Source of the DNA: a virus
Strand: one strand, 5' to 3'
Length of the DNA: 22,782 nucleotides
IMG/VR virus record: IMGVR_UViG_3300035070_002492
Location: 1-22,782 of that record
Shown here: one piece after another, positions 5,099 through 22,782 of the stretch
Layout of the letters: each line of letters begins with the position of its first letter
Numbering within the stretch: the stretch's first letter is position 1
Notes under the pieces: generated by a model
The model's database searches: none
What the model was told of the DNA's origin: nothing
What the model saw: only the letters and a program-made list of their open reading frames with translations
Position numbers and translations under genes: made by a program

Positions 5099-6964
5099 AT
5101 GTCCTACACATTTACAAGAACAGGCGCGCAGATTGAAGAGATTCATAACACTGTTGACGACCTGTCAAATATAGTAAGCAATGAAAACCTAATATTAAAC
5201 TCATCATTTGAAATTGCAGGAAGCGTGACAAGTCCGCCTGATGCAACACCTAGAAGTTACAATGCTGGGGATGAGATATTTCAAGGTATGTTCGCAGTTG
5301 GTGCTCTAACTGGTGTAACTTACATTGACGGGAAATCGAATGGCACAGGCCAGCTTTACACAGATGTATATAAGTCAGAAAAACAAAAGCTATCAACAGC
5401 TAACTATGTGGCAAGTATTGCAAGTAGTGACGGCTCACCTGTCGAGTCTGGCGCATCATTTGTTGATATAGGTGACTACTGGCGCGTTACTTTTGATATG
5501 AACGAAACTTTCTCCGTGAAGTTTGAGCGGGGGAGTATTGCGACGAGTCATGAGATTTGCCAGTTGAAGTTAGCGAAATTCGGTAGCTCTGTTTCATTTA
5601 AGATCCCATCTGACTTCCCTGATTTTATGGATGCGATAGAGGCTACTCAATTCTCAATGTCTGGCTCATCATCATCAATAATCCTAATTGCAGAGTCTGG
5701 ACACAAAATAAAGCGAGGCATTGACGTAAGGTGGTTTGATGCGTCTAGATATATCATTCAGTCAGAAGATGCAATCCTAACGCTAGATCCATCTTTTGTT
5801 GGGGTCGATGCTTCTGACCTACTACCGGGATATGCTGGTATAATTGGAGAAATTCCAAGGCCCCCTCTGTTTTTTGGGCTCTATTCAAGACTGCCAACCC
5901 TCGACTGTGTGATAGATATGGGAGGGCTGTATGGCTGCGGAGTGCAGTGTGCTGAAAGTTGGTTTTCTGGTTCCCAAGGTAGCGGGGTGATAAACTCAGG
6001 ATTTAGGGCGTACCAAATACACGGAAGAGCCAATCTTTACGGAATGACAGGTGAGGGCGCTGACGGTTCATCCTTAAGAATACAGCAAGCGTCATCGGTA
6101 AATGCTAGAAACTTTATTGGTGACATGTCTTGCAAGAATGTGAATTCAAGTGATGATTCTGCAATATACCAGTCCAGATCTTCCACCTTAGAGTTTAGAG
6201 GGGGGTCAGCCAATGATTCCGGCGCTGCGGGTTACATCGGTAGAAGATGCCTGGCAACGCTTGATGATGCAACATTCGACAGGCCAGCTGACAAGGCCGT
6301 TATTGGCGAGAGTGAGTCAAATATATCCTGGGCTAATGGGTCTGGTGTTGACTGTGTATCCAACGCAATAAGATGCATATCAAATGCATCCGTGTACGCA
6401 GTGGGGGCTTCCACATCGACTACAAGTAGCGCTGATAACTTCAACGTTGACTCTGGCGGAGTTATAACGATAGCAGGGAGCAACACAATTGAAGGGGCGT
6501 CAGGTTCAGAGTCTTTGGTGATATCGGAGTCAAATGTAGAATACACCAATGCGTTCGGTGATTCTGGCATGATATTCTTTGATGGGGGTAACGGCACATT
6601 TAAATTAACATCTAACTCGAATGGTGTATCACAAAGATTTGCTGATGGAACTATGAGGACATTTATAAGCACAACCATAGATACAGGTCAAGTTCTGGCT
6701 AATGCCTACTCTCAACAAATCTCACTTCCAACTCAGCCGGACACGTTCGCTACCGTCAGGTCTGTTTCATTTGATGTGGTGGGAAGAACTGGCGCTTCGG
6801 GCGGTGGTAATCGATTGTTTGTAAGTGAATGTCACAGGCCCCAGCTTACAACAGGGAGTGAGTGGAAGGTATACAACACAGGGGTTCAGCTAGATGGTAC
6901 ATCAACAGGACTCATCTGTTTATCGATAAACGCAACAATAGTGACTGAAGGGACATGGAGATAA
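5099..6964 (+). CDS. Tail fibre / tailspike-like protein
   Basis: 621-aa protein with an AAGGAAAT ribosome site before ATG. Residues 1-30 look like a short fibre attachment segment (TRTGAQIEEIHNTVDD). From about 165 to 480 the sequence is a run of short Gly/Ser/Asn/Val-rich units without long helices, as expected for a right-handed parallel beta-helix of the pectate-lyase or tailspike kind. The last 100 residues are a separate Gly/Thr-rich domain. Likely role: binding, and possibly cleaving, surface polysaccharide. No catalytic residues can be assigned by eye. Ten bases separate it from the tail-tip gene. Confidence 0.65.
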   Translation: MSYTFTRTGAQIEEIHNTVDDLSNIVSNENLILNSSFEIAGSVTSPPDATPRSYNAGDEIFQGMFAVGALTGVTYIDGKSNGTGQLYTDVYKSEKQKLSTANYVASIASSDGSPVESGASFVDIGDYWRVTFDMNETFSVKFERGSIATSHEICQLKLAKFGSSVSFKIPSDFPDFMDAIEATQFSMSGSSSSIILIAESGHKIKRGIDVRWFDASRYIIQSEDAILTLDPSFVGVDASDLLPGYAGIIGEIPRPPLFFGLYSRLPTLDCVIDMGGLYGCGVQCAESWFSGSQGSGVINSGFRAYQIHGRANLYGMTGEGADGSSLRIQQASSVNARNFIGDMSCKNVNSSDDSAIYQSRSSTLEFRGGSANDSGAAGYIGRRCLATLDDATFDRPADKAVIGESESNISWANGSGVDCVSNAIRCISNASVYAVGASTSTTSSADNFNVDSGGVITIAGSNTIEGASGSESLVISESNVEYTNAFGDSGMIFFDGGNGTFKLTSNSNGVSQRFADGTMRTFISTTIDTGQVLANAYSQQISLPTQPDTFATVRSVSFDVVGRTGASGGGNRLFVSECHRPQLTTGSEWKVYNTGVQLDGTSTGLICLSINATIVTEGTWR

Positions 6965-7212: not shown

Positions 7213-7488
7213 ATGGATGTTAGCATGAGTGAAGTTAACGAACGGTTAGCTAGAGTTGAGCAAGGCCAAGTACATCAAGAAAAACAATTAGATAAGCTTG
7301 TTAGTGTTACCGAGAAGTTAGCAGATGTTCACATTAGGATGTCCAGTCTTGAGGGTAAGGTTGAAAAGCACGAAACAAAGATTTCGCAAAACGAAAAGCA
7401 GATTGCAAAATACTCTCTACTTTTCGCTATACTGGTTGGGTTCCTTGTTCGTTATTTCCCGGAGCTAAAGGCTATCATTGGTCTCTGA
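7213..7488 (+). CDS. XhlA-like coiled-coil membrane protein (holin accessory)
   Basis: 91-aa protein: a charged heptad-like coiled coil (residues 5-65) followed by one C-terminal membrane segment (about 67-85, SLLFAILVGFLVRYF). Size and layout match haemolysin XhlA-type phage proteins, which sit at the inner membrane and assist holin or endolysin function in some phages. The ATG has GGGG eight bases upstream, in the right arm of the terminator; an alternative ATG is at 7225. It converges with the LuxR-type gene and overlaps its 3' end by 24 bases. The assignment rests on architecture only. Confidence 0.6.
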   Translation: MDVSMSEVNERLARVEQGQVHQEKQLDKLVSVTEKLADVHIRMSSLEGKVEKHETKISQNEKQIAKYSLLFAILVGFLVRYFPELKAIIGL

Positions 7489-7788
7489 TTTTCTACGAGT
7501 TCTAACCTGACGCGACACTCTTCTTTGCATATCCAAATCTGTGAAGTCTGGGTTAATCGCCATCTCAAGCTCAATTGCTGAAGTTGTAGTTATCAGCAAG
7601 CAAATAATACCCGCCTTTGCTGCCTTGTATATGCACTCCGAAAGCGTTTTAGCTCCCAGCTTACTTTTGATATTCTTAATTCGCTTATCTATTGCTGAGT
7701 GACTAGAGCTATCCTGTGATGCTATCTGCTTAATTAGCTCACCATTTGCCAGTCTACGCAATGTAGATAACTCCAGTCGTGTTAGCAT
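7465..7788 (-). CDS. LuxR/GerE-type HTH transcriptional regulator
   Basis: 107-aa protein. Residues 3-62 fit a GerE-type DNA-binding domain: LSTLRRLANGELIKQIA, then SAIDKRIKNIKSKLGAKTL and a closing helix. There is no N-terminal receiver or autoinducer-binding domain. After the HTH comes a hydrophobic stretch (about 60-72, AGIICLLITTTSAI) and a basic tail (QRRVSRQVRTRRK). It is the last gene of the minus operon that includes the pyrophosphohydrolase. It probably binds DNA; targets and effectors cannot be read. GGGA lies nine bases before ATG. Confidence 0.7.
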   Translation of the reverse strand: MLTRLELSTLRRLANGELIKQIASQDSSSHSAIDKRIKNIKSKLGAKTLSECIYKAAKAGIICLLITTTSAIELEMAINPDFTDLDMQRRVSRQVRTRRKSETNDSL

Positions 7789-10798: not shown

Positions 10799-10848
10799 TG
10801 AGTTAAATATACAAACAAAACTGATTTGTGTATGTGATGGTCGTCACA
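10799..10848 (-). promoter_or_regulatory. Class II CRP-type promoter of the lysis operon
   Basis: Perfect TGTGA-N6-TCACA at 10833-10848, centred 41.5 bp upstream of predicted +1 (10799). The -10 on the minus strand is TATATT (10811-10806). The hexamer at the -35 position is CATACA, a poor match, as expected for an activator-dependent promoter. Confidence 0.75.
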
Positions 10849-21105: not shown

Positions 21106-21150
21106 CAACAATCACAGACTTAAAACAATGCGCAGTCTATTATGGCTGCG
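21101..21150 (+). promoter_or_regulatory. Class II CRP-type promoter
   Basis: Perfect TGTGA-N6-TCACA (21101-21116) centred at -41.5 from predicted +1 (21150), -10 TATTAT (21138-21143). It overlaps the upstream stop codon. Confidence 0.75.
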
Positions 21151-21171
21151 TACTTAATTGGAGAGATAGAT

Positions 21172-21843
21172 ATGATTACTTGTAAAGAAGATTTGTACGG
21201 GACGCATGTTTTGCTTTCTGATGGTGAGGCGCTTGAGATTTACGTTAATTTAATTAATGAGCTTGAAATAGCAGAAATAAAAATTAGAGCAGGTGATTGC
21301 GAAGATGCTATCGAGGTGCACAAGGCAGAGTGGGAGCCGTCTGGTTGGGGTGCTTCATTTGCAACGCTTGTAGGTTTGGATTTTGGATCAAAGCGACTAA
21401 CCCTAGAAGACTTTAAACCACAAGCCAAAGGGGTTGAGTGTGCTAATGGTTTACATCCTATCGGTGTTGAGTGTGAGCTTAAAGACCTAAAACCAAAACC
21501 AACCAAGTTTGTAAAAGTCGAAGAGTCTATCTTTGATTTAAAGGAAGAGTTCGAGAGTGGTGAGTTGTATTTTGATGCTGGCGAATTGTCAGACGGTTAC
21601 GCACTATCAATTAGTGGGTACGTAAAGATTAATAGCAAGGAAACATTGTGCGATTGCTACTCTGATGGAAATGTTTACCGACAGGTTGAGCTTGATTGGC
21701 GCGATGAGGTTAAAAGTAAATACTCATTGACTGACTTTAGAAACCTTGATGATGAAGGATGTATAAATCTAGGCGATTGGACTCCAGAAGGGTTTATTAA
21801 ACTTTGTCATTTTGTAGCAGAACTAACAGGTAAACTAGAGTAA
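21172..21843 (+). CDS. Hypothetical protein under CRP-type promoter
   Basis: 223-aa acidic protein, no membrane or signal segment. The ATG at 21172 has GGAGAG six bases before it and lies 34 bases from the -10; the in-frame ATG at 21142 is inside the -10 hexamer and is rejected. The N-terminal 80 residues look helical, then a Cys-Glu-rich segment (VECANGLHPIGVECELKDL) and a mixed C-terminus. No family recognised. Confidence 0.65.
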   Translation: MITCKEDLYGTHVLLSDGEALEIYVNLINELEIAEIKIRAGDCEDAIEVHKAEWEPSGWGASFATLVGLDFGSKRLTLEDFKPQAKGVECANGLHPIGVECELKDLKPKPTKFVKVEESIFDLKEEFESGELYFDAGELSDGYALSISGYVKINSKETLCDCYSDGNVYRQVELDWRDEVKSKYSLTDFRNLDDEGCINLGDWTPEGFIKLCHFVAELTGKLE

Positions 21844-22126: not shown

Positions 22127-22435
22127 ATGAATGAAATGAAAGCAACAGATGCAGCAAGAGAGCTTTACCAAATTACAGAGGAGTTAGAGCGTGGTGACTG
22201 GGCGATGATTTACCCAGAAGGCGCAATGCTTAAGGTTAAGAGAAAGATTGAGCTCATCAATATTATATCTAATCAGATGAGAGATAATGAGCCAACAAGG
22301 GATTCATTCCCAGAGTATGGTGACGCGCAAGGTGACTTGATGGAGTTTGTTTATAAGCGATTTGACGGTATGCCAATTGCCGCAATCATAGGATTCTTAG
22401 AGATGGCCAAGTTATCAATCATTGACGAGGCATGA
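22127..22435 (+). CDS. Hypothetical protein in single-gene unit
   Basis: 102-aa acidic, helical protein (ATDAARELYQITEELERGD...) with GAGAG eight bases before ATG. It has its own promoter and terminator, so it stands as a one-gene unit. No family recognised. Confidence 0.65.
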   Translation: MNEMKATDAARELYQITEELERGDWAMIYPEGAMLKVKRKIELINIISNQMRDNEPTRDSFPEYGDAQGDLMEFVYKRFDGMPIAAIIGFLEMAKLSIIDEA

Positions 22436-22444
22436 TAACAAAAG

Positions 22445-22464
22445 CCCACTTAACCGTGGGTTTT
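22445..22464 (+). terminator. Terminator
   Basis: CCCAC (22445-22449) and GTGGG (22456-22460), followed by TTTTCTC. Confidence 0.75.
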
Positions 22465-22471
22465 CTCATTA

Positions 22472-22521
22472 TGTGATATTAATCACAGACACGAATAGAA
22501 ATTAGGACTATTATTAAACCC
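22472..22521 (+). promoter_or_regulatory. Class II CRP-type promoter of a short transcript
   Basis: Perfect TGTGA-N6-TCACA (22472-22487) centred at -41.5 from +1 (22521), -10 TATTAT (22509-22514). Confidence 0.75.
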
Positions 22522-22625
22522 TCAAAGCAAGAAGAGATTTAACCTTTAACTAACCAAAAGGTACATAACATGAAATGAGAGGCTAAAGACCTCAAACTAG
22601 AAGCCCCTTAATTGGGGTTTTTTAT
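22521..22625 (+). ncRNA. Possible small RNA or two-codon minigene transcript
   Basis: The transcript predicted from the CRP-type promoter is about 105 nt and ends at a good terminator. It contains a ribosome site (AAAAGG, 22556-22561) and ATG at 22570, but the frame is only ATG AAA TGA; an overlapping ATG at 22575 stops after three codons. A small stem GAGG/CCTC (22579-22593) lies between this and the terminator hairpin. It could be a regulatory sRNA, a minigene as in lambda bar sites (two-codon ORFs that sequester tRNA), or the remnant of a deleted gene. Confidence 0.45.
22601..22625 (+). terminator. Terminator of the short transcript
   Basis: CCCC (22604-22607) and GGGG (22614-22617) with a TTAATT loop and flanking AAG/TTT pairs, followed by six T. 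Confidence 0.85.
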
Positions 22626-22639
22626 TACCTAAAGATTGG

Positions 22640-22655
22640 TGATATAATCAAGCTA
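22640..22655 (+). promoter_or_regulatory. Extended -10 promoter before the terminase gene
   Basis: TGA-TATAAT (22640-22648) with no good -35 (TTTTAT). Predicted +1 near 22655, 42 bases from the ATG. No CRP site. Confidence 0.55.
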
Positions 22656-22696
22656 ATTCGGTTAGGCCGATTAACATTAAATCATAAGGTGATTAT

Positions 22697-22782
22697 ATGG
22701 CTAAATTGACAGATAAGCAGAGGAGTTTTATAGAGCATTATTGCTCAAATGGATTCAATGCAACACAGGCTGCAATCAGTGC
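22697..22782 (+). CDS. Terminase small subunit (5' part)
   Basis: The visible 28 residues (MAKLTDKQRSFIEHYCSNGF, then NATQAAISA) match the start of Terminase_2-type small subunits, whose N-terminal HTH (LTxKQxxFxxxY...NATQAA) binds the packaging site and guides the large subunit. AAGGTG lies before ATG. The gene runs past the window end. It marks the start of the packaging/head module. Confidence 0.85.
   Translation, partial: MAKLTDKQRSFIEHYCSNGFNATQAAIS

Follow-up and report, generated by a model that had tools for sequence, protein, structure and literature searches.

What product, if any, is encoded by a phage unit in which a perfect CRP-type promoter leads into a terminator with no real gene in between? 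This question is raised by a locus near the right end of the window, the 22,782-nt stretch of DNA analysed here, which represents part of the genome of a tailed Vibrio phage. The annotated kin of the window come from the Nahant collection and from related Vibrio phages. Coordinates refer to the + strand of the window unless stated otherwise.

Promoter, predicted transcript and borders of the unit

The CRP box TGTGATATTAATCACA at 22472–22487 is a perfect palindrome of the form TGTGA-N6-TCACA with 10/10 conserved bases. The -10 element TATTAT (22509–22514) is found 21 nt past the box. Given a transcription start near 22521, which we infer from the promoter sequence, the center of the box is located at -41.5 and overlaps the -35 position. 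This is the class II geometry, and the box together with its spacing has the architecture of a class II CRP-activated promoter. Four perfect CRP boxes are observed in the window while 0.026 are expected from its base composition, and rearranged half-sites, used as a control for this count, have no match in the window.

About 85 nt without a gene separate TATTAT from the downstream terminator, and no ORF of at least 40 aa is found from the CRP box to the terminator. The intrinsic terminator AGAAGCCCC-TTAATT-GGGGTTTTTT with its U6 tail occupies 22599–22623. Our pattern scan returned no downstream terminator on the + strand, and the terminator is evident from the sequence and the predicted fold. 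The positions of promoter and terminator, together with fold z-scores, point to a putative small RNA at 22521–22623, and from these positions the transcript would therefore be about 100–105 nt long. A non-coding stretch with its own promoter and intrinsic terminator is the arrangement of a phage-encoded small regulatory RNA.

On the left, the slot that holds the unit is closed by the terminator (22443–22466) of the preceding accessory gene (22127–22435). On the right, an extended -10 element, TGATATAAT at 22640–22648, is presumed to be the promoter of the terminase small subunit gene (terS) and is also seen in L003 and in L063, a contig described below. The terS gene starts at 22697 and is cut by the end of the window (22697–22782). 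A preliminary description of this DNA had placed a perfect CRP-type promoter at 22472, followed by a 105-nt transcript with no real gene and a closing terminator, just before the packaging genes. As a reading of the sequence, this is borne out, coordinates included.

To the left of the slot, 22127–22465 is an accessory cassette whose downstream part, with its terminator, is located behind the portal gene in phage 1.003.O and its kin (counterpart L006 4407–4644, 85% identity). As judged from these positions, this accessory cassette changes place.

Copies, empty site and other cargo in relatives

One certain and one probable homolog of the unit were found. The certain one is in Vibrio phage 1.265.O, where a unit of 178 nt with 78.7% identity lies in the equivalent place upstream of terS. 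The homology begins exactly at the CRP box and ends at the terS -10 element (22640–22648). In the adjoining terS gene, only 8/18 third positions are identical between the window and 1.265.O at shared amino acids. The probable homolog is a weaker copy in the jumbo Vibrio phage GR7B, located between two other genes, and no CRP box is found in the DNA upstream of it. This match came from BLAST with E values of 0.2–2 over 2.3 Gb, and therefore its homology to the window unit is probable but not certain.

Exact-pattern scans of IMG/VR and genome contigs yielded no further copies, BLAST against plasmids gave no match to the unit, and no Rfam family scored above its gathering score. A degenerate pattern gave two matches, of which the first is unrelated coding DNA and the second lies in a Bacteroidetes contig. 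A match in the V. alginolyticus phage Va1 (H92) was discarded, as it consists only of a ribosome site and an ATG before a longer frame.

In other relatives the slot is empty or holds another cargo. The IMG/VR contig 3300038485_000133 (L063) has a terS start and leader nearly identical to those of the window, and the unit is absent. At about 6490–6518 of this contig, a terminator almost identical to 22443–22466 is directly followed by the terS promoter, which makes it an empty site. In phage 1.144.O and the IMG/VR contig 3300035070_002521 (L041), the slot contains a different CRP promoter and a gene for a 66-aa membrane protein. This cargo precedes the terminator and leader that are common with the window, and in 1.144.O these are identical over 97/97 nt. 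The DNA from promoter to ATG in 1.144.O and L041 does not align with that of the window; only the box and the terminator are related. The empty site in L063, the other cargo in 1.144.O and L041 and the homolog in 1.265.O thus establish the unit as discrete and the cargo of the slot as variable. In being an autonomous promoter–gene–terminator unit that is present or absent at one site among close relatives, it corresponds to the phage morons, but its product is a predicted RNA and not a protein.

The stretch shared with 1.144.O, 22601–22697 in the window and 44322–44418 in MG592515.1, comprises the terminator and the terS leader, and the terS genes behind it are of different types. Read from this alignment, a mosaic junction between the two phages lies exactly at the terS start codon.

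RNA structure, short reading frame and rival readings

The predicted folds of 3/3 copies contain hairpin 1 (ACCUUU/AAAGGU or similar), hairpin 2 and the terminator. The fold z-scores are -2.1 for the window, -3.1 for 1.265.O and -3.2 for GR7B. Hairpin 1 of the window, ACCUUU-N9-AAAGGU, is located at 22542–22562. Its 3′ arm holds a ribosome-site-like AAGG, and its 5′ arm could pair with a site of this kind. 1.265.O retains the pairs of hairpin 1 and GR7B, where the hairpin lies within a longer predicted stem, retains most of them; covariation among U-A, U-G and C-G is observed across the copies. Hairpin 2, GAGG-CUAAAGA-CCUC at 22579–22593, appears as GUGG/CCAC in GR7B, so that an A-U pair is replaced by U-A. 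In the terminator, a compensatory C-G to U-A pair is present in 1.265.O. All changes inside stems between the window and 1.265.O, those of the terminator included, preserve pairing. In hairpins 1 and 2 and their surroundings, 1/20 paired and 11/38 unpaired positions differ between these two phages, a faster change at unpaired positions whose significance is weak (P = 0.04).

A covariance model built from the window and 1.265.O only gives the GR7B copy 39.3 bits (E 9e-5 in the 208 kb of this phage), while the next best match in that genome reaches 22.2. With its alignment row placed by hand, GR7B keeps 9/10 pairs of hairpins 1 and 2, including compensatory A-U/U-A and U-A/C-G exchanges. The secondary structure is conserved between relatives, as counted over three copies, which is a small sample. 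The covariation that the preliminary description had proposed to look for is found, with base pairs kept or covarying in both 1.265.O and GR7B.

At the level of sequence, the class II architecture, the insulation by terminators, the polymorphism of the slot, the homology to 1.265.O and the kept three-hairpin structure are established. Since two other Vibrio phages have kept the unit, a small RNA (sRNA) gene seems a better reading than a two-codon protein gene or a gene remnant. We consider it fairly probable that the unit is a CRP-activated sRNA gene, carried as a moron-like cassette with its own promoter and terminator in a slot between accessory genes and terS. The host cAMP–CRP complex would switch the sRNA on when sugars are scarce. 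The RNA of about 105 nt would then accumulate, perhaps together with Hfq bound at the U-rich terminator. It would probably act through base pairing, most likely via the conserved stretch AAGAGAUUUA(A)CCUUU. The ACCUUU of this stretch could pair with ribosome-binding sites and would be sequestered in hairpin 1 until used. When pairing with the gene starts of the phage was predicted, the RNA performed no better than shuffled RNA and no target stood out.

The unit also carries a two-codon ORF, ATG AAA TGA at 22570–22578, with AAGG 8 nt upstream. The ATG and the upstream AAGG are kept in 3/3 copies, but the ORF itself is not conserved. It has 2 codons in the window, 13 in 1.265.O (MKLEAKNLTLKAL) and 5 in GR7B (MTTVD), and its last codon is AAA, CTT and GAT, respectively. 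Furthermore, fold prediction places AAGG inside hairpin 1, in paired form, for 3/3 copies. The short ORF thus fits neither a minigene that depends on its last codon nor a conserved peptide. The good ribosome site described earlier before ATG AAA TGA therefore stands in position and spacing, but would be poorly accessible. From the earlier alternative of an sRNA gene or a minigene, the 1.265.O unit, the GR7B copy and the covarying pairs speak for the sRNA gene, while the unconserved ORF and the paired site speak against the minigene.

Among the other readings, a deletion remnant survives best, although we regard it as unlikely. A CRP-driven gene would have lost its body and left a functionless promoter, ribosome site, start codon and terminator. 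The preserved ATG and AAGG agree with such a history, and so does the tail past the ORF stop, which resembles part of a 233-aa protein (27 nt, 78%). In addition, the slot of 1.144.O and L041 holds a CRP promoter and the 66-aa membrane-protein gene before the same terminator. A longer gene between the same promoter and terminator had been named in the preliminary description as the mark of a remnant, and in form this is what these two relatives contain. However, their leader DNA is unrelated to that of the window and the site in L063 is empty, so that a remnant of the membrane-protein gene is not indicated, and on the unrelated leader we reject this particular origin. For remnants in general, it counts against them that the DNA from box to ATG does match 1.265.O, which has no long gene in the unit either. 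The unit is also more conserved than neighboring third codon positions, its hairpins are preserved, and a probable copy is found in GR7B, an unrelated jumbo phage.

An effect in cis seems quite improbable to us. CRP-driven transcription across 22521–22623 would tune the terS promoter by interference or read-through, and the RNA would be incidental. The T-run of the terminator adjoins the extended -10 of terS (22640–22648), and the unit is equally placed in 1.265.O, as would be expected. But the kept hairpins 1 and 2 would be left unexplained, the GR7B copy sits between other genes, and in the close relative L063 the terS promoter is present and the unit absent. A minigene like those of the lambda bar regions, in which translation of ATG AAA TGA would trap peptidyl-tRNA or ribosomes, has AAGG at the proper spacing in the window and a start codon with a short ORF in 3/3 copies in its favor, but is very unlikely, since the ORF is not conserved (substitutions between the copies alter the peptide) and the predicted folds bury the ribosome site in a stem; AAA, moreover, is a commonplace lysine codon in AT-rich Vibrio DNA. 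Attenuation of terS by a leader peptide was rejected: the 13-codon ORF of 1.265.O extends into the loop of the terminator, where it ends, but the ORFs of the window and GR7B stop earlier, which leaves no common mechanism of this kind.

CRP promoters across the phage group and known systems

The promoter of the putative sRNA cassette is one of several with the same geometry. In the related phage DNA examined, where homologous promoters are included and the cases are not all independent, a -10 element (at least 5/6) lies 21 nt past a CRP box (at most one mismatch) in 40 cases and 20 nt past it in 4, and each other spacing accounts for 0–3. Promoters with this class II signature number at least five in the window, nine in 1.265.O, five in 1.144.O and five in 1.003.O, and none is found in simulated sequences matched for dinucleotide content. 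In the window, the boxes with a -10 element at 20 or 21 nt are located at 10833 (- strand), 13335, 19776, 21101 and 22472. These five precede replication, recombination and accessory genes, and the signature recurs in the three whole relatives.

No Crp domain (PF00325) was found in the window, 1.265.O, GR7B, 1.144.O or 1.003.O, and therefore the regulator is likely the CRP of the host. We propose, tentatively and with somewhat less than even confidence, that this group of Vibrio tailed phages entrusts much of its transcription to host CRP, including replication, recombination and accessory operons and a mobile sRNA cassette. Infection and, by way of the sRNA, translation in host or phage would then be tied to the carbon state of the cell.

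The CRP-driven gene at 21142–21843 is located before terS in the window, and its homolog in 1.265.O (MG592630.1 1619–2279) lies in the interval between terL and portal. The latter has its own CRP promoter; thus CRP-driven cassettes occupy several sites.

Phage-encoded small RNAs of Vibrio or lambdoid phages are among the closest known likenesses. VpdS of vibriophage VP882 and PreS/LPR1 of lambda are phage sRNAs for which Hfq is the proposed partner, and they affect phage and host mRNAs (PMC12197685). VpdS comes from a quorum-sensing temperate phage, whereas the window unit is headed by a promoter of class II CRP architecture. A search of relatives turned up no integrase domain. CisR of V. cholerae is a host sRNA whose transcription requires CRP and which ties both phage and host to the supply of carbon (PMC13250501). 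It acts on a Vibrio phage, is host-encoded and cut from a 3′UTR, and its promoter needs HapR too (PMC13250501). Both CisR and the putative window sRNA are CRP-linked, but the latter is phage-encoded with its own predicted primary promoter. In phage T1, host cAMP–CRP acts on several phage promoters and represses them (PMC6737242). The window phage, in contrast, has the geometry of class II activation, repeated through its genome.

Spot 42/SpfP of E. coli is an sRNA that resembles the window unit in its link to CRP, its length of about 110 nt and the very short ORF annotated inside it. Spot 42 is repressed by CRP, and Rfam gives no match of the window unit to it. With the lambda bar minigenes, the unit shares a two-codon ORF after a ribosome-site-like sequence, but relatives do not preserve this ORF, and the predicted fold pairs the site. 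Our incomplete coverage of the literature brought up neither an account of this unit nor one of class II CRP promoters spread over a phage genome.

Few small RNAs of phages are known so far, and prophages have supplied most of them. For the putative sRNA of the window, a covariance model and three copies define a family signature, and both the slot and the regulator of the promoter are known; it is therefore directly testable. If one host-CRP promoter architecture indeed extends across this marine Vibrio phage group, a link between host nutrition and phage expression also becomes testable, and this genome-wide architecture may matter more than the single sRNA.

The window also encodes, at 7465–7788 on the - strand, a 107-aa protein that contains a LuxR-type (GerE) HTH and carries the annotation of a sigma-factor-like or response-regulator effector domain. 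Judged from this domain, it is possibly a transcription regulator of the phage.
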